Below are positions 15,345 to 63,311 of a stretch of 64,000 nucleotides of DNA, one piece after another. The notes below the pieces were generated by a model. That model was not told where the DNA came from and did not search any database. It saw only the letters and a list, made by a program, of their open reading frames with translations. The stretch covers positions 8,425,501 to 8,489,500 of the forward strand of contig NZ_CP163518.1 of the NCBI RefSeq assembly GCF_041080625.1. The letters run 5' to 3'. This DNA comes from Streptomyces sp. CG1 (GTDB taxonomy: Bacteria > Actinomycetota > Actinomycetes > Streptomycetales > Streptomycetaceae). Each line of letters begins with the position of its first letter. Position 1 is the first letter of the stretch. Both the position numbers and the translations under genes were made by a program.

Positions 15345-16970
15345 TCAGCCCTTGAGCTGCTCGTACGCCGGCAGGGTGAGGAAGTCGGCGTAGTTCTCGT
15401 CCAGGGAGACCCGCAGCAGCAGGTCGTGGGCCTCCTGCCAGTGGCCGGCGGCGAAGGCCTGCTCGCCGATCTCCTGGCGGATGTTGGACAGTTCCTCGGC
15501 GGCGACCTTGCGGGCCAGTTCCGGCGTGGCCTTGTCGCCGTTCTCGAACTCGACCCCCGCGTTGATCCACTGCCAGATCTGCGAGCGGGAGATCTCCGCG
15601 GTGGCCGCGTCCTCCATCAGGTTGAAGATGGCGACCGCGCCGAGCCCGCGCAGCCAGGCTTCGATGTACCGGATGCCGACCTGGACGGCGTTGACGAGAC
15701 CGTGGTACGTCGGCTTCGCGTGCAGCGAGTCGATCGCGATGAGGTCGGCCGCCTCGACGTGGACGTCCTCGCGCAGCCGGTCCTTCTGGTTCGGCTTGTC
15801 GCCGAGGACCTTGTCGAAGGACTCCATGGCGATCGGGACGAGGTCGGGGTGGGCGACCCAGGAGCCGTCGAAACCGTCGTTCGCCTCGCGGTCCTTGTCG
15901 GCGCGGACCTTCTCGAAGGCCACCTTGTTGACCTCGGCGTCCCTGCGGGACGGGATGAAGGCCGCCATGCCGCCGATCGCGTGCGCGCCGCGCTTGTGGC
16001 AGGTGCGGACGAGGAGTTCGGTGTACGCCCGCATGAACGGGGCCGTCATCGTGACCGCGTTGCGGTCCGGCAGGACGAACCTGGCGCCGCCGTCACGGAA
16101 GTTCTTGACGATGGAGAACAGGTAGTCCCAGCGGCCGGCGTTCAACCCGGCGGCGTGGTCGCGGAGTTCGTAGAGGATCTCCTCCATCTCGTACGCGGCC
16201 GTGATCGTCTCGATCAGGACGGTGGCGCGGACGGTGCCCTGCGGGAGGCCGACGTAGTCCTGCGCGAACACGAACACGTCGTTCCACAGCCGCGCCTCGA
16301 GGTGCGACTCGGTCTTCGGCAGGTAGAAGTACGGGCCCTTGCCGAGGTCCAGCAGCCGCTGGGCGTTGTGGAAGAAGTAGAGGCCGAAGTCGACGAAGGC
16401 ACCGGGGACCGGTGTGCCGTCGGCGTCGACGAGGTGCCGCTCGTTCAGGTGCCAGCCGCGCGGCCGCATGACGACCGTCGCCAGCTCCTCGTTCGGGCGC
16501 AGGGCGTACGACTTCCCGGAACCCGGGTCGGTGAAGTCGATGTTCCGGGTGTAGGCGTCGGTCAGGTTGACCTGGCCGAGGATCACGTTCTCCCAGGTCG
16601 GCGCGGAGGCGTCCTCGAAGTCGGCGAGCCAGACCTTCGCGCCCGAGTTCAGCGCGTTGATGGTCATCTTGCGGTCGGTGGGGCCGGTGATCTCGACCCG
16701 GCGGTCGTTCAGCGCGGCCGGGGCCGGGGCGACCTTCCAGGAGTCGTCCGCGCGGACGGCGGCCGTCTCGGGGAGGAAGTCGAGCGTGGAGGTGCGGGCG
16801 ATCTCGGCGCGGCGCTCGGCCCGGCGGGCGAGGAGTTCGTCACGGCGCGGGGTGAACCGTCGGTGCAGCTCCGCCACGAAGGCGAGCGCCGCGTCCGTGA
16901 GGACCTCTTCCTGCCGGGGCAGGGGCTCGGCGTCGACGATGGCCAGCGGGGACGGCGCTGGTGCGGACAT
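15345..16970 (-). CDS. aceB: Malate synthase A
   Basis: A 541-residue enzyme condensing glyoxylate with acetyl-CoA to malate. [20 protein letters not shown] and [13 protein letters not shown] (about 95-126) form the signature region. [37 protein letters not shown] (active-site Glu strand) and NVDYIF-like [13 protein letters not shown] follow, then MGGMAAFIP as [10 protein letters not shown], typical of the A isoform. In this location it serves glyoxylate released from allantoin as well as C2 growth. Upstream (17053-17088) are two 15-bp boxes 21 bp apart that match those between allR and allB, so I infer control by the IclR regulator encoded nearby. No isocitrate lyase gene is in the window. 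Confidence 0.95.
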
Positions 16971-17052: not shown

Positions 17053-17088
17053 TTCTGAACAGTGGATAGTAGTTTTCTCATTGTGGAA
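17053..17088. promoter_or_regulatory. Paired IclR-type boxes upstream of aceB
   Basis: TTCTGAACAGTGGAT (17053-17067) and TTTCTCATTGTGGAA (17074-17088), spaced exactly 21 bp start to start. The second shares 12 of 15 bases with TTCCGCTTTGTGGAA at 19355. The same two-box, 21-bp architecture occurs between allR and allB. The inner edge is 83 bases from the aceB start. Confidence 0.6.
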
Positions 17089-17154
17089 CTTCAATGGTTT
17101 GTTGATGTCGAGATTCTCTGAGTCGAGGCAAGGTGGCGCCCAGTGCCACCCTCT

Positions 17155-17757
17155 TCACTCAAGGTGGCGTAGGTCGGCCTCGGTGTCGATGTCATACGGT
17201 GCGGCCACGTCCGCGCACTCCACGAGCCGGATCTGAGCCGCGTGCTCCTTCAGATAGGCGCGGGCGCCACGATCCCCGGTGGCGGTCGCCGCGATGTCCG
17301 CCCAGTGGGCCGCGCCGAACAGCACCGGATGCCCGCGCGTGCCGTCGTAGGCGGCCGAGACCAGCGATTTCTCGTCCTCGTAGGCGCCGAGTACCCGCGC
17401 CACGGCCGCCGGCCCGATGCCCGGCTGGTCGACGAGGCTCACCAGGGCCGCGCGCGCCCCCGTACCGGCGAGCGAGGCCAGTCCGGCCCGCAGTGAGGAA
17501 CCCATACCCTCGGCCCAGTCGGGGTTGTCCACGAGCACACAGCCGTTCAGGTCGGCCCGCGCCCGCACGTCGTCCGCCCGGGCGCCCAGCACGACGTGCA
17601 CCCGCGTGCACCCGGCCGCGCGCAGCACCTCCACCGCATGCTCGACCAGCGGCCGCCCCCGGTGCGTCAGCAGCGCCTTGGGCCGCCCGCCGAGCCGTCT
17701 GCCCCCGCCCGCGGCGAGCAGCAGCCCGGCGACCTCTTCATGGTGGTTCTGCGTCAT
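17155..17757 (-). CDS. MobA-like nucleotidyltransferase (molybdenum cofactor cytidylyl/guanylyltransferase family)
   Basis: A 200-residue NTP-transferase. VAGLLLAAGGGRRLGGRPKALL (about 9-30) is the nucleotide-binding P-loop-like motif with the conserved Lys. LVEHAVEVLRAAG, VLVDNPDWAEGMGSSLRAGL and LVSLVDQPGIGPAAV (metal/nucleotide Asp) complete the pattern, and GHPVLFGAAHW is typical of MocA/MobA-like enzymes. These add CMP or GMP to molybdopterin. In a purine-degradation neighbourhood the obvious client is xanthine dehydrogenase, but its genes are not here, so this link is inference. It lies upstream of aceB on the same strand. Confidence 0.82.
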   Translation of the reverse strand: MTQNHHEEVAGLLLAAGGGRRLGGRPKALLTHRGRPLVEHAVEVLRAAGCTRVHVVLGARADDVRARADLNGCVLVDNPDWAEGMGSSLRAGLASLAGTGARAALVSLVDQPGIGPAAVARVLGAYEDEKSLVSAAYDGTRGHPVLFGAAHWADIAATATGDRGARAYLKEHAAQIRLVECADVAAPYDIDTEADLRHLE

Positions 17758-17886
17758 GCGTCCTGCATACCTGACGAAGGGCGGGGCGGCTGGTTCCCTT
17801 GGGCTGAATTTCGGTCCGCGCTGTGGCGCTCCCGGACGCGGTGGCGTTTACTGGCCCGCGCACGACGGCGTGTGAGGGGGAGGGCT

Positions 17887-18201
17887 GTGTTGCGGAGCTT
17901 GGGGCAGAGACCGGTGACCGGCAGCTACGAGGACCCGAGAGTGGCGGAACTGCGGACCGCGGTGTCCCGGCTGCGCCGCGAACTGGCCGCGCTCCCGTCC
18001 GAGTTCCCCGACCGCGTCATCGCCGAGGACGAACTGGCGGCGCTGGCGGCGATGGTCTCGGGCGGTTCCCCGGAGACTCCGCGTCTGCGCAGTTCCCTGT
18101 TACTGATCGCGGGGGCGATCGGCTCGGTGAGTGCGCTGTCGAGGGGCCTCAAGGGCGTACGTGAGGCGGTGGATCTCTTCGGCGAACCGCCGCGAACTTG
18201 A
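17887..18201 (+). CDS. DUF5955-type small protein with a TTA codon
   Basis: A 104-residue protein of a Streptomyces-specific family, I believe DUF5955. It begins VLRSLGQRPVTGSYEDPRV. A predicted long helix VAELRTAVSRLRRELAALPSEF is followed by AEDELAALAAMVSGG and a hydrophobic segment RSSLLLIAGAIGSVSALS. The start GTG at 17887 has a GGGGGAGGG Shine-Dalgarno just upstream. Codon 72 (18100) is TTA, suggesting dependence on bldA. The role is unknown. It is transcribed opposite to both neighbours and is separated from allR by 256 bases with nothing recognisable. Confidence 0.7.
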   Translation: MLRSLGQRPVTGSYEDPRVAELRTAVSRLRRELAALPSEFPDRVIAEDELAALAAMVSGGSPETPRLRSSLLLIAGAIGSVSALSRGLKGVREAVDLFGEPPRT

Positions 18202-18457
18202 AGGCGTGGGGTGCGTCGGCCCACCCGGGGTCTGTCCGGCGGATCCTGCCGCGGACGCGGCGGCCGGAACGCCCTCCCCCACTGCCTCAAGGGTATGGGG
18301 GCACCCCAGCGGCGTTGTCGTCGGCTGCCGACTCCCGCACGCTCGGCTGTGCTCGCGCGGGAGGGGCCCCATCGCCCCCGCTCACCTGTGCGGCGACCCC
18401 GCGTGGGCGCGACAGCCCCGACGCGTACACGCCGGCAAACGATCGCGCCCCGAGCTC

Positions 18458-19252
18458 TCAGGCTCCTGAACTGGCCAACGCCTGGGACAACTCAAGGGCG
18501 ATCTGCTGCAACACCGGCACGATCTTGTCGGTCGCGGCTTCGGTGACCCGTCCGGCAGGCCCGGAGATCGAAATCGCCGCAGCCGTCGGAGACTCGGGCA
18601 CGGACACCGCGAGGCACCGCACCCCGATCTCCTGCTCGTTGTCGTCGACGGCGTACCCGGTGCGTCGCACATCCTCCAGCGCCGCCAGGAACCCCTCAGG
18701 CGTGGTGATGGTCTTCTCCGTGGCCGCAGGCATCCCGGTACGCGCCAGCAACGCCCGCACGTCGTCGTCCGGCACCCCGGCGAGCAGTGCCTTTCCGACG
18801 CCGGTGGAGTGAGGAAGCACCCGGCGGCCCACTTCCGTGAACATCCGCATCGAGTGCTTCGACGGCACCTGCGCCACGTACACGATCTCGTCGCCGTCGA
18901 GCAGCGCCATGTTCGCGGTCTCGCCGGTCTCCTCTACCAGCCGGGCGAGATACGGCCGCGCCCATGTGCCGAGCAGCCGGGACGCCGACTCGCCGAGCCG
19001 GATGAGCCGGGGGCCGAGCGCGTACCGCCGGTTCGGCTGCTGACGGACGTAGCCGCAGGCGACCAGCGTGCGCATCAGTCGGTGGATGGTCGGCAGCGGC
19101 AGCCCGCTGGTCGCGGACAGCTCGCTCAGGCCGACCTCGCCACCCGCGTCCGCCATGCGCTCGAGCAGGTCGAAGGCGCGCTCCAGGGACTGGACACCGC
19201 CCCCGGCGGAGGGCTTGGCGGAGTCGGTGGTGCTGGCGCTGGACGTCGGCAC
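18458..19252 (-). CDS. allR: IclR-family regulator of allantoin catabolism (AllR type)
   Basis: A 264-residue regulator. Winged helix: GGVQSLERAFDLLERMAD, VGLSELSATSGLPLPTIHRL, MRTLVACGYVRQQPNRRYALG. The effector domain has ANMALLDGDEIVYVAQVPS, LPHSTGVGKALLAGVPDDDV and YAVDDNEQEIGVRCLAVSV, the standard IclR ligand-pocket blocks. In S. coelicolor the IclR protein next to allantoinase (AllR) represses the allantoin genes and responds to a pathway intermediate; this gene has the same position and orientation. Two 15-bp boxes lie 82-117 bases upstream of its start, almost exactly the same distance as the matching boxes upstream of aceB. Confidence 0.9.
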   Translation of the reverse strand: MPTSSASTTDSAKPSAGGGVQSLERAFDLLERMADAGGEVGLSELSATSGLPLPTIHRLMRTLVACGYVRQQPNRRYALGPRLIRLGESASRLLGTWARPYLARLVEETGETANMALLDGDEIVYVAQVPSKHSMRMFTEVGRRVLPHSTGVGKALLAGVPDDDVRALLARTGMPAATEKTITTPEGFLAALEDVRRTGYAVDDNEQEIGVRCLAVSVPESPTAAAISISGPAGRVTEAATDKIVPVLQQIALELSQALASSGA

Positions 19253-19333
19253 GGCGCGTTCCTTTCGGGGGCTGGCAGGAGTTGCAGAAGCCTACCCGGC
19301 AGTCGGTTGACTCCCTGCTTGTACGTAGCTACG

Positions 19334-19369
19334 TTCTGCTTGCTGGAATTCTAATTCCGCTTTGTGGAA
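19334..19369. promoter_or_regulatory. Paired IclR-type boxes between allR and allB
   Basis: TTCTGCTTGCTGGAA (19334-19348) and TTCCGCTTTGTGGAA (19355-19369), spaced exactly 21 bp and sharing 12 of 15 bases. The second is a near-perfect palindrome (TTCCRC-N3-GYGGAA). Another inverted repeat, GGAATT-CT-AATTCC (19345-19358), bridges them. The likely ligand is the IclR protein encoded alongside. Confidence 0.65.
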
Positions 19370-19446
19370 ACGTCCAGAGTGGATGCGGGGTGCAGGCTGT
19401 CCAGCAGTGTGCCCCTTGACGGCGGAGAAGTGGGAGTGAAGACTCC

Positions 19447-19463
19447 TTCAACAGAACGTTGAA
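19447..19463. promoter_or_regulatory. Perfect inverted repeat upstream of allB
   Basis: TTCAAC-AGAAC-GTTGAA, 65 bases before the allB start. It differs from the paired 15-bp boxes, so it may be a second site for the IclR protein or a site for another regulator. Confidence 0.45.
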
Positions 19464-19500
19464 ATCCGTTACGTGGGTGTAAATCCCGTTTCTGGGGCGT
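19462..19500 (+). promoter_or_regulatory. Imperfect direct repeat with a GlnR-like site, allB promoter
   Basis: AAATCCGTTACGTGGGTGT is followed immediately by AAATCCCGTTTCTGGGGCGT. Inside is GTTAC-GTGGGT-GTAAA (19468-19483), close to the GlnR element gTnAc-n6-GaAAc. Nitrogen control of an allantoin gene would make sense, but this rests on a single half-site match. Confidence 0.35.
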
Positions 19501-19527
19501 AAAACGGCGGTACAGAGAGGGGTTCGG

Positions 19528-20865
19528 GTGTCCGACGCTGAACTGGTCCTGCGCTCGACGCGTGTCATCACTCCGGAAGGGACGCGGGCCGCCTCGGTCG
19601 CCGTGTCGGCCGGGAAGATCACGGCCGTCCTGCCGTACGACACGGAGATCCCGGCCGGCGCACGGCTGGAGGACTTCGGCGACCACGTCCTGCTGCCCGG
19701 CCTGGTCGACACCCATGTGCACGTCAACGACCCGGGCCGCACCGAGTGGGAGGGCTTCTGGACCGCCACCCGCGCGGCGGCGGCCGGCGGCATCACCACG
19801 CTGATCGACATGCCGCTCAACTCCCTCCCGCCGACCACCACGGTCGCGAACCTGCGGGTCAAGCAGCAGGTCGCGGCCGACAAGGCGCACATCGACGTCG
19901 GCTTCTGGGGCGGCGCCCTGCCCGACAACGTCAAGGACCTGCGCCCGCTGCACGACGCCGGCGTCTTCGGCTTCAAGGCGTTCCTGTCCCCGTCCGGCGT
20001 GGACGAGTTCCCGCACCTGGACCAGGACCGGCTCGCCCAGTCCCTGGCGGAGATCGCCGGCTTCGGCGGCCTGCTGATCGTGCACGCCGAGGACCCGCAC
20101 CACCTGGCCGCCGCCCCGCAGCACGGCGGCCCCAAGTATGCCGACTTCCTCGCCTCCCGCCCGCGCGACGCCGAGGACACGGCCATCGCGAACCTCATCG
20201 CGCAGGCCAAGCGGCTCCGTGCGCGCGTGCACGTCCTGCATCTGTCCTCCAGCGACGCGCTGCCGCTGATCCGCGCCGCCCGCGCCGAGGGTGTCCAGAT
20301 CACCGTGGAGACCTGCCCGCACTACCTCACCCTCACCGCCGAGGAAGTCCCGGACGGCGCCAGCGAGTTCAAGTGCTGCCCGCCCATCCGCGAGGCCGCC
20401 AACCAGGACCTGCTCTGGGAGGCGCTGGCCGACGGCACCATCGACTGTGTCGTCACCGACCACTCGCCCTCCACCGCCGACCTGAAGACCGCCGACTTCG
20501 CCACCGCCTGGGGCGGCATCTCCGGTCTCCAGCTCAGCCTGTCCGCCGTATGGACCGAGGCACGCGCGCGTGGATACGGCCTGGAGGACATCGTGCGCTG
20601 GATGTCCACGCAGACGGCCGCCCTGGCCGGCCTGCGCGACAAGGGCGCCATCGAGGCCGGCCGCGACGCCGACTTCGCCGTCCTCGCCCCCGACGAGACC
20701 TTCACCGTCGACCCGGCCGGCCTCCAGCACCGCAACCGGGTCACCGCGTACGCCGGCAAGACCCTGTACGGCGTCGTGAAGTCCACCTGGCTGCGCGGCG
20801 AACGCGTCGTCGACGGCGGCGAGTTCACCGAGCCCAAGGGCACGCTGCTCGCCCGCCCCCAGTAA
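19528..20865 (+). CDS. allB: Allantoinase
   Basis: A 445-residue dihydroorotase-like amidohydrolase that opens the hydantoin ring of allantoin to allantoate. Metal ligands are visible: VDTHVHV (H63, H65), the carbamylated lysine in [10 protein letters not shown] (K150), HAEDP and HLSSSDALP for the further His residues, and VVTDHSPS for the Asp. [18 protein letters not shown] is the allantoinase-specific MPLNS loop. The GTG start at 19528 has AGAGAGGGG upstream. It is followed after 54 bases by allantoicase on the same strand, forming the operon. The promoter region carries several candidate operators. Confidence 0.95.
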
Positions 20866-20919: not shown

Positions 20920-22050
20920 GTGACGGCGCTGCATCAATCGAGTTTGGCCAGCTTCACCGGCGACGCGAACCCCTACGGAGGCGGCGACCCGTACGCGGAC
21001 TACCGCACCGCCGACTTCCCCTTCACCCAGTACGCCAACCTCGCCGACCGGCAGCTCGGCGCCGGTGTCATCGCCGCCAACGACGAGTTCTTCGCCCAGC
21101 GCGAGAACCTGCTGGTGCCCGAGCGGGCCGAGTTCGACCCCGAGCACTTCGGGCACAAGGGCAAGATCATGGACGGCTGGGAGACCCGCCGCCGGCGCGG
21201 CGTGTCCGCCGAGCACCCGTGGCCGACCGCGGAGGACCACGACTGGGCGCTGGTCCGCCTCGGCGCGCCCGGCGTCATCCGCGGGATCGTCGTCGACACC
21301 GCCCACTTCCGCGGCAACTACCCGCAGGCCGTCTCCGTCGAGGCCGCCTCGGTACCGGGCTCGCCCTCGCCCGAAGAGCTGCTCTCCGGCGAGGTGAAGT
21401 GGACGACGCTCGTCCCGCGCACCCCGGTCGGCGGCCACGCGGCGAATGGTTTCTCCGTATCGGTCGAGCAGAGCTTCACGCACCTGCGGGTCAACCAGCA
21501 CCCCGATGGCGGCATCGCCCGCCTGCGGGTGTACGGCGAGGTCGTCCCCGACCCCCGGTGGCTGTCGGTCCTGGGCACCTTCGACGTGGTCGCCCTGGAG
21601 AACGGCGGCCGGGTCGAGGACGCCTCCAACCTCTTCTACTCCCCGGCGACCAACACCATCCAGCCGGGCCGCTCCCGCAAGATGGACGACGGCTGGGAGA
21701 CCCGCCGCCGCCGTGACCAGGGCAACGACTGGATCCGCTACCAGCTGGTGGCCCAGGCGCAGATCCGCGCCGTCGAGATCGACACCGCCTATCTGAAGGG
21801 CAACAGCGCGGGCTGGGCCTCGGTCTCCGTCAAGGACGGTGAGAGCGGCGAGTGGACCGAGATCCTCCCGCGCACCCGCCTCCAGCCCGACACCAACCAC
21901 CGCTTCGTCCTCCCGGCCCCGGCCGTGGGCACGCACGCGCGGGTCGACATCTTCCCCGACGGCGGCATCTCCCGCCTGCGCCTGTACGGCTCCCTCACCG
22001 ACCACGGCACGGCAGGCCTCGCGGCCCGGCACCAGGAACTGGGCGGCTGA
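20920..22050 (+). CDS. alc: Allantoicase
   Basis: A 376-residue enzyme that hydrolyses allantoate to ureidoglycolate and urea. It has the two homologous beta-sandwich repeats of the family, each carrying MDGWETRRRR or MDDGWETRRRR (near 86 and 255), an ID/VDTAxxKGN-like motif (VVDTAHFRGNYPQ and IDTAYLKGNSAGW) and an RxNxxPDGGIxRLRxYG block (HLRVNQHPDGGIARLRVYGE and RVDIFPDGGISRLRLYG). Start GTG at 20920 with AAAGGAA upstream. Cotranscribed with allB. No ureidoglycolate lyase or urease gene is in the window, so the final step to glyoxylate must be encoded elsewhere. Confidence 0.95.
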   Translation: MTALHQSSLASFTGDANPYGGGDPYADYRTADFPFTQYANLADRQLGAGVIAANDEFFAQRENLLVPERAEFDPEHFGHKGKIMDGWETRRRRGVSAEHPWPTAEDHDWALVRLGAPGVIRGIVVDTAHFRGNYPQAVSVEAASVPGSPSPEELLSGEVKWTTLVPRTPVGGHAANGFSVSVEQSFTHLRVNQHPDGGIARLRVYGEVVPDPRWLSVLGTFDVVALENGGRVEDASNLFYSPATNTIQPGRSRKMDDGWETRRRRDQGNDWIRYQLVAQAQIRAVEIDTAYLKGNSAGWASVSVKDGESGEWTEILPRTRLQPDTNHRFVLPAPAVGTHARVDIFPDGGISRLRLYGSLTDHGTAGLAARHQELGG

Positions 22051-62468: not shown

Positions 62469-63311
62469 TCAACTGTTCCGGTTCAGGTACTGGAGGAATG
62501 TGGACACATAGGTCCGATCGGCGGCTTGCGAGCAGGGAAATGTCGCCACGGCGGCATCGAGTTCCGATTGATGGAACTTCCGCCACGTAGGATTCTGAGC
62601 GGCCAGCGCCGCCAATCGGTCCTGGGGCAGTACTTGGTCCCCACCTTGAATGCCGGCCATCACGGACGTGTATTCCTTGCGCAGGTCCGTGATGAGCGCG
62701 AGACGGGATTGCGCCGGATGACCGGCCGCCGCCGCACAGGATCTCCACGTCTCAAGTGCCGATCGGTAACGTCTGTCGTGTTGCACCTCACCGTCCACCC
62801 GAGCCCACTCGGAGTTCGCCTCCGGGATTCCGTATTCCTTTTCGGTCGTGCGCTGTGAGCTGTCTACGCATCCGGGAAGGGCCGCATCGTAAGCCTTGAG
62901 GGAAGCAGCTGAAAGGGCCTTCAGGTAGCTCTTGGCTGTCGTGGCCTCAGGGGTGAAGTGGGGAAACACTGATATTCCGAATCCGTGCTTGCGCGCGTAG
63001 TCGAGGCTCGAGAAGTCTGATGCGTCCTCGACATCAACTACGCTGTGCGGGTTCTTGGGCAGGTACTGGAAGCCGTGCGACTTCATGCATGTGGATGTCA
63101 GGGCCTCCGTGCGAGCGGCAACCTCGAGGTCGAATTCTTCCGACTCCGACTGGCCGGAAGCACCTGCCAGGATCAGCACGAAACGGCGGGTGTTGGCCGT
63201 CGCCCGGGCCGTCTGGCCGCCGTCGGACGGGAAATAGGCGAACCCCGCCGCGACCATCGCGGCAAGGATCACGGCCAGTGTGACCGCAAGGGTCTTGTGT
63301 CTGCCCAGCAT
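62469..63311 (-). CDS. Membrane-anchored or exported protein of unknown function
   Basis: About 280 residues from ATG 63311, which has GGAGGAGG at good distance; the longer frame to 63395 overlaps a hairpin. LAVTLAVILAAMVAAGFAYF (about 8-27) is a signal anchor. The exported part has four spaced cysteines (TSTCMKSHGFQYLP, LPGCVDSSQRTTEK, WRSCAAAAGHPAQS, FPCSQAADRTYVST) that could form two disulfides, and is mainly helical. I do not recognise it beyond the general class of Streptomyces surface proteins with a CMKxxGFxY motif. It lies downstream of a small secreted-protein gene on the same strand. Confidence 0.7.
   Translation of the reverse strand: MLGRHKTLAVTLAVILAAMVAAGFAYFPSDGGQTARATANTRRFVLILAGASGQSESEEFDLEVAARTEALTSTCMKSHGFQYLPKNPHSVVDVEDASDFSSLDYARKHGFGISVFPHFTPEATTAKSYLKALSAASLKAYDAALPGCVDSSQRTTEKEYGIPEANSEWARVDGEVQHDRRYRSALETWRSCAAAAGHPAQSRLALITDLRKEYTSVMAGIQGGDQVLPQDRLAALAAQNPTWRKFHQSELDAAVATFPCSQAADRTYVSTFLQYLNRNS

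Follow-up and report, generated by a model that had tools for sequence, protein, structure and literature searches.

A paired operator very probably places malate synthase under the allantoin regulator AllR in Streptomyces sp. CG1, and a second palindrome is shared by the same promoters

Does the malate synthase gene of Streptomyces sp. CG1 answer to the same regulator as the allantoin genes close to it? The question is raised by a 64-kilobase (kb) stretch of the genome (contig NZ_CP163518.1, positions 8,425,501 to 8,489,500; hereafter the window), in which aceB, coding for malate synthase A, lies near allR, coding for a regulator of the IclR family, and allB, coding for allantoinase. Two 15-base boxes spaced 21 base pairs (bp) apart are found upstream of aceB and again between allR and allB, and their sequence, spacing and conservation make it very probable that both pairs are operators of the repressor AllR. 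All four 15-mers lie at the start positions reported by a first-pass annotation, with the 21-bp spacing in both pairs, and its count of 12 identical bases among the 15 of the second boxes was reproduced; the first boxes share 9 of 15, counted by eye. Scored against the AllR-type pattern TTCYRN5YGGAA-N6-TTCYRN5YGGAA, which has 20 defined positions, these are the best 21-bp pairs of the window (20 for allR/allB and 17 for aceB), the runner-up reaching 15. A single box at 62562 was discarded, being in or near a reading frame and far from allantoin or glyoxylate genes. The annotation had also noted the nearly equal distances from the pairs to the minus-strand start codons. The distances themselves are correct, measured start to start (83 bases to the aceB codon at 16970 and 82 to the allR codon at 19252), but their agreement is a coincidence, the gap ranging from 31 to 156 bp across aceB loci scoring at least 17, and it was rejected as evidence for a shared operator.

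A search of the organism's own 11.1-Mb genome revealed just three places matching the pair pattern with at most one mismatch, located upstream of gcl (glyoxylate carboligase), upstream of hyi (followed by glxR) and at allR/allB. A pattern built from the two sites of the window recovered both of them and added hyi at one mismatch; the best profile for hyi is hydroxypyruvate isomerase, at 312.2 bits under a cutoff of 353.45. In a panel made up of the organism's own genome and 60 drawn Streptomyces genomes (61 in total), the pair at this stringency occurs in 56, with 127 forward matches as compared with none for the reversed pattern, and the best-per-genome loci, available for 30 of the 56 genomes with the pair, fall at gcl (10), hyi (11) and allR/allB (9), so that 30 of 30 carry the expected genes. 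Only the pair gave a usable signal, scans with single boxes being unspecific (38 forward matches versus 14 in the control, and 56 versus 23).

The aceB copy is near the control level in the genome scan, and comparative support was therefore needed for it. Of 80 named AllR loci 71 contain aceB, giving 72 aceB regions with that of the window, and 80 allR-allB regions could be measured (79 loci and the window); these loci are related and so are not independent. The best pair upstream of aceB scores at least 17 in 69 of the 72 regions, as against a single one of 2160 dinucleotide shuffles (0.05%); the best pair between allR and allB does so in 78 of 80 regions, as compared with 0.17% of 2400 shuffles. 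When spacings of 18 to 24 bp were compared, a spacing of 21 bp gave scores of at least 18 in 65 of 72 aceB and 78 of 80 allR-allB regions, whereas all other spacings gave such scores in no aceB region and in at most four allR-allB regions. Mean column conservation is 0.946 within the aceB operator versus 0.764 in the other upstream columns, with corresponding values of 0.881 and 0.691 at allR/allB. Alignments for gcl and hyi, and for uraD and catalase considered below, comprised the organism's own locus and a further 20, selected from genomes in which matches had been listed. The gcl operator scores 20 in 18 of 20 loci, the remaining two being 50-54% matches, and the hyi operator scores 19-20 in 14 of 21 loci; for the remaining seven, the inferred start apparently falls inside or beyond the operator, and each of those genomes has a listed pair near the cluster.

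AllR itself is composed of the helix-turn-helix domain PF09339 and the C-terminal effector domain PF01614, which places it in the IclR family. By its nearest named locus, whose AllR is 99% identical, the genome is that of a Streptomyces. The E. coli-type AllR (NF007548) was rejected as a family name, at 123.4 bits against an equivalog cutoff of 406, and the protein is below the NCBIfam equivalog cutoffs of E. coli AllR, IclR and BhcR alike. Four of the five residues that contact the glyoxylate oxygens are kept (G160, D212, S239 and S241 in IclR numbering), with A161 replaced by Val; the residue list was taken from a table in PMC11323563. Each operator contains four half-sites (TTCYR, YGGAA, TTCYR, YGGAA), spaced at roughly one turn of the helix, on which AllR may bind as a tetramer or a pair of dimers and block RNA polymerase. 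Release by a pathway product, glyoxylate and/or allantoate, would then jointly induce allantoin breakdown and both exits for glyoxylate, through malate synthase and through the carboligase-hyi-glxR genes.

The proposal of the first-pass annotation, that one regulator ties allantoin breakdown to glyoxylate use through malate synthase, is partly supported, being largely right on the allantoin-glyoxylate-malate link, and extends a published regulator. The shared operator, the neighboring IclR-type AllR and the allantoin-glyoxylate-malate link found support; the ureidoglycolate and urease genes that a motif scan was expected to add were not seen at the places examined in the organism's own genome, although those genes themselves were not located and tested. 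The members found are instead gcl, hyi-glxR, allR/allB, aceB and perhaps a DUF6986 gene. Nor were there the many unrelated genome hits named as grounds for refutation, at least for the strong sites with at most one mismatch; the aceB copy needs three. Strong matches are restricted to these genes, a few unassigned ones aside, and the pair offers a sequence signature specific to the AllR regulon in the genus Streptomyces; malate synthase would be added as a conserved member.

Several observations weigh against this assignment. By palindrome alone the aceB operator is not significant genome-wide, with 12 forward and 14 reverse matches at its three mismatches versus 8 and 8 in the control, and a few pairs in other genomes lie elsewhere (G033:C52, which is unassigned, and G021:C16). 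The aceB pair score is 14 in 3 of 72 regions, those of S. violaceoruber (L032), L067 and L085, box 1 having been lost in the single S. violaceoruber locus. The strict pair is missing from 5 of the 61 genomes, though AllR (77-84% identical) is present in all five, and among 18 allR loci, partly picked for a missing pair, eight score below 17 before allR (G010, G037, G043, G055, G060 and G257 in Streptomyces; G106 and G113). Conversely, in G050 (82% complete) a pair is present at hyi, yet the search for AllR found none. Only one residue of the IclR hydrophobic patch (positions 143, 146, 154 and 220) is kept in AllR, namely M146. Counted in favor of AllR is its 3.8-kb locus in G257, where neither allB nor the operator adjoins allR. 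Among the individual pairs rejected, G033:C52:57589 has no match to any query protein, that at 3596056 of the organism's own genome (two mismatches) overlaps with the initiation codon of a gene for an AMP-binding enzyme, and those at 683399 and 4163445 (three mismatches) have no related gene nearby by eye.

The organism's own genome contains 21 IclR-like stretches including AllR, and the 20 others count toward an alternative in which a different member of the family, such as a dedicated regulator of the glyoxylate bypass, reads the aceB pair, its likeness to the AllR site being a family resemblance. The aceB boxes deviate from the palindrome in a conserved manner (GGAT, and T at position 5), which is likewise in favor of this alternative; affinity for AllR may be low there, or another factor may read the site. 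We nevertheless consider it unlikely, as the allR/allB site only 2.3 kb away shares both spacing and half-sites with the aceB pair and aceB is present in 71 of the 80 AllR loci fetched. Moreover, G106, an actinobacterium belonging to a different family, carries allR (62%) divergent to aceB (68%) with a single box, TTCCGTATCATGGAA, between them, where no good partner is found 21 bp from the box and the pair score is 14.

The positions of the operators relative to the predicted promoters, which are mostly by-eye calls, would suit a repressor at every promoter considered. At aceB, where the consensus scan called no promoter, a -35 element TTGAAC/G is found in 72 of 72 regions and a -10 element TAGTAT or TACTAT in 69; box 2 is located within the spacer, and box 1 overlaps and follows the -10. 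This overlap with the -10 may be why the GGAT of box 1 departs from the palindrome. The predicted -10 of allR sits between the two boxes, one of them filling the spacer as at aceB (TGGACG in 55 and TAGAAT in 38 of 80 regions), and the operator starts where the -10 of the first predicted allB promoter, P1, ends (TTGACT in 57 and TACGTT in 66 of 80 regions). In the second, P2, GAAGACT is found in 64 of 80 regions and each TTGACG column is at least 95% conserved. At the predicted promoters of gcl (TTGACG-17-TACATT) and hyi (TTGACA-18-CAATCT), the operator immediately follows the -10 or lies at its end.

Because the predicted -35 and -10 of aceB, together with a second palindrome, TTCAAC-N5-GTTGAA, overlap or abut the boxes, the conservation upstream of aceB could in principle belong mainly to these elements, with no separate function for the AllR-like boxes. 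This seems quite improbable, since box 1 extends downstream of the -10 and is mostly TTCTGNNCAGTGGAT across the 72 aceB regions, box 2 being mostly TTCCTCATNGTGGAA. Chance similarity, for which the lack of genome-wide significance of the aceB copy might speak, can be dismissed almost entirely in view of the score reached in nearly all aceB regions and in one shuffle, so that a chance origin of the sequence pattern is already very unlikely.

Besides the AllR operators, an alignment of the footprints revealed that the second palindrome, absent from the first-pass annotation, is shared by the aceB and allB promoters. The pattern WTCAACN5RTTGAM, widened to take in aceB, matches nine places in the organism's own genome (2 and 2 in the control): at catalase (which lies between gcl and glxR), uraD, aceB, allB and a Cyclophil_like gene, with four lacking a related gene by eye. 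The narrower TTCAACN5GTTGAM is found in 59 of 61 genomes, with 154 forward matches versus 26 in the control, and 30 of its loci were assigned to uraD (8), allB (7), Cyclophil_like (PF04126; 5) and catalase (4), six remaining unassigned, one of them at DUF6986. Among the cluster loci the palindrome stands before uraD in all 18 and before catalase in 15 of 16. Its right arm coincides with the predicted -35 at uraD, catalase and aceB, and at allB the palindrome follows the -10 of P2; both placements fit a repressor. Literature searches surfaced no published regulator of this palindrome, which does not prove that none is in print. With allantoin control by AllR already published, the second palindrome and its candidate reader are the newer part of these findings.

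That candidate is a small HTH_22 protein encoded beside uraD, next to a thiamine-binding-like gene (24.1 bits, just under the cutoff of 24.9). Our tentative proposal, which we would put at somewhat less than an even chance, is that this protein joins AllR as a second regulator, a repressor reading TTCAAC-N5-GTTGAA at uraD-uraH-uricase, catalase, allB and aceB, along the route from urate to malate, with DUF6986 as a further member and perhaps a glyoxylate enzyme. A repressor is suggested because the site is just downstream of the predicted -10 at allB and over the predicted -35 elsewhere. If so, the aceB and allB promoters would be junctions of two overlapping regulons leading from urate to malate.

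Among the 28 Streptomyces listed within a class-level sample of 296 genomes, the HTH_22 gene was found in 25, and the palindrome (at least 10 of 12 positions) lies inside the locus in 23 of these, the remaining two loci containing no uraD. Of the three listed Streptomyces without the gene, two have no uricase match, and G257 and G335, which lack one, were set aside as uninformative. The third, G211 (L255), has kept uricase; residues 1-33 are all that it has of the thiamine-binding-like gene. An HTH_22 gene was not found in it, and its genome has no strict palindrome. At allB it nevertheless retains a palindrome whose two arms have changed in a matching way, TTCGACGAAACGTCGAA, an indication that the site still has a reader, and this counts against HTH_22 in that role; on this account our estimate, already a little short of even, was lowered slightly further. 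In G106 (L199), an HTH_22 domain 57-60% identical is joined, fusion-like, to a thiamine-binding-like domain and followed by TTCAACAAACTGTTGAC and uricase. G113 has uricase, but its only HTH_22 match is weak (39%) and the motif is missing. With a single natural loss and a single case of retention at a distance, the evidence is only suggestive. In G035 and G010, where the gene was unseen in short loci, longer stretches revealed HTH_22 whole (G035) or as residues 68-114 (G010), and the palindrome of G010 was found at one further mismatch. The protein has no sequence relative in the PDB at E <= 0.01. By inferred gene order it should correspond to SCO6208 of S. coelicolor, labelled a putative transposase in PMC3897704.

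Further members of either regulon are less certain. An AllR-type pair is located 16-17 bp before the DUF6986 gene in the organism's own genome (17/20) and in G039 (19/20), and in G051 the second palindrome is found upstream without a pair, three genomes having been looked at in all. DUF6986 has a weak, sub-cutoff match to HpcH/HpaI and a very weak one to malyl-CoA lyase (28.7 bits against a cutoff of 500); it is perhaps a member of the AllR regulon. These findings point to two testable leads, a putative second regulator of purine genes and an uncharacterized enzyme.

Other sites were observed in passing. An AllR-like pair (17/20) precedes catalase in 3 of 16 loci (L155, L171 and L173), the other 13 scoring 11-15. 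In G106, a 20/20 pair and a second palindrome lie within 131 bp (L263 1935-1970 and 2049-2065), before genes for what, by eye, appear to be a small membrane protein and a symporter of the sodium:solute type. The sequence TTCAACANNNTGTTGAA stands just before the Cyclophil_like (PF04126) gene, between hisC and cydA as called by eye (L149 4184-4200; also L120, L129, L130, L132 and L143). Before allB, at 19469-19504 of the window, are two alike 15-mers 21 bp apart, TTACGTGGGTGTAAA and TTCTGGGGCGTAAAA, with a pair score of 15, the second being gapped in most relatives.

Table 1. Genes, operators, predicted promoters and palindromes, in window coordinates unless a locus handle (L) is given.
Feature	Position	Strand	Details
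aceB, malate synthase A	15345..16970	minus	TIGR01344, 846.8 bits (cutoff 594.5)
allR, IclR-family regulator	18458..19252	minus	PF09339 (67.5 bits) and PF01614 (141.3 bits), each exceeding its cutoff
allB, allantoinase	19528..20865	plus	TIGR03178, 635 bits (cutoff 357.85)
Allantoicase gene	20920..22050	plus	TIGR02961, 413.6 bits (cutoff 277.9)
aceB operator, AllR-type	box 1 17053-17067; box 2 17074-17088	minus	17/20
allR/allB operator	19334-19348; 19355-19369	.	20/20
Predicted aceB promoter	17066..17094	minus	-35 TTGAAG 17089-17094, 17 bp, -10 TACTAT 17066-17071; by eye
Predicted allR promoter	19348..19376	minus	TGGACG 19371-19376, 17 bp, TAGAAT 19348-19353; only promoter-like site of the scan
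Predicted allB promoter P1	19307..19335	plus	TTGACT-17-TACGTT; by eye
Predicted allB promoter P2	19416..19444	plus	TTGACG-17-AAGACT; by eye
Second palindrome at aceB	17090..17106	minus	ATCAACAAACCATTGAA; overlaps -35; conservation 0.963 vs 0.764 for the rest
Second palindrome at allB	19447..19463	plus	TTCAACAGAACGTTGAA; just after P2 -10; conservation 0.956 vs 0.691 for the rest
Second palindrome, uraD-uraH-uricase copy	L003 10533-10549
Second palindrome, catalase copy	L003 7776-7792
HTH_22 gene	L003 10109-10471		120 amino acids; between thiamine-binding-like gene and uraD
AllR-type pair before DUF6986	L007 3572-3607; L258 2034-2069
Second palindrome before DUF6986	L260 2934-2950

Among known systems, AllR of S. 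coelicolor comes first, which reportedly regulates allantoin pathway genes, going by the title of Navone et al. 2015 (AEM 81:6649). In 78 of the 80 regions measured, allR stands beside allantoinase with an operator scoring at least 17 between them, the sequence compared being that of S. violaceoruber and not of S. coelicolor. S. violaceoruber, a close relative of S. coelicolor, has an AllR 93% identical to that of the window and, as observed directly, encoded beside allB. The S. coelicolor protein is presumably also IclR-type and beside allB, in part on the basis of PMC12772271. The difference lies at aceB, where S. violaceoruber lacks box 1; since half of the operator is lost in that one locus, the aceB link may be hard to observe in the S. 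coelicolor group. In PMC12772271 the S. coelicolor homologue is described as repressing allantoin genes (worded there as 'allantoin biosynthesis'), and PMC11438217 states that allantoic acid inhibits DNA binding by AllR, to a lesser extent. As for other control of the same genes, PMC4991794 reports SCO6209-6211, the uricase operon, as changed in the HbpS-SenS-SenR system, with a predicted SenR site of different sequence before SCO6209, and ArgR boxes are predicted for SCO6205-SCO6206 in PMC5839063.

According to PMC11323563, E. coli AllR represses allantoin and glyoxylate genes and binds the gcl promoter, and glyoxylate both lowers its DNA binding and releases IclR. Its half-sites are likewise GGAA/TTCC (Table 1 of PMC8222616), but its operator is a single GGAA...TTCC palindrome, whereas the Streptomyces operator has four half-sites in the outer order TTCC...GGAA. 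E. coli IclR on aceBAK also controls malate synthase, through the site TGGAAATNATTTCCA (same source), and the residues contacting the glyoxylate oxygens are mostly kept in Streptomyces AllR. It differs in serving the glyoxylate bypass, while the Streptomyces aceB is joined with allantoin genes, and AllR reaches 167.4 bits against the NCBIfam IclR cutoff of 380. The best NCBIfam match of AllR is BhcR of Paracoccus denitrificans, at 200.8 bits under a cutoff of 350; BhcR controls the beta-hydroxyaspartate cycle and is described as glyoxylate-responsive in PMC11323563.

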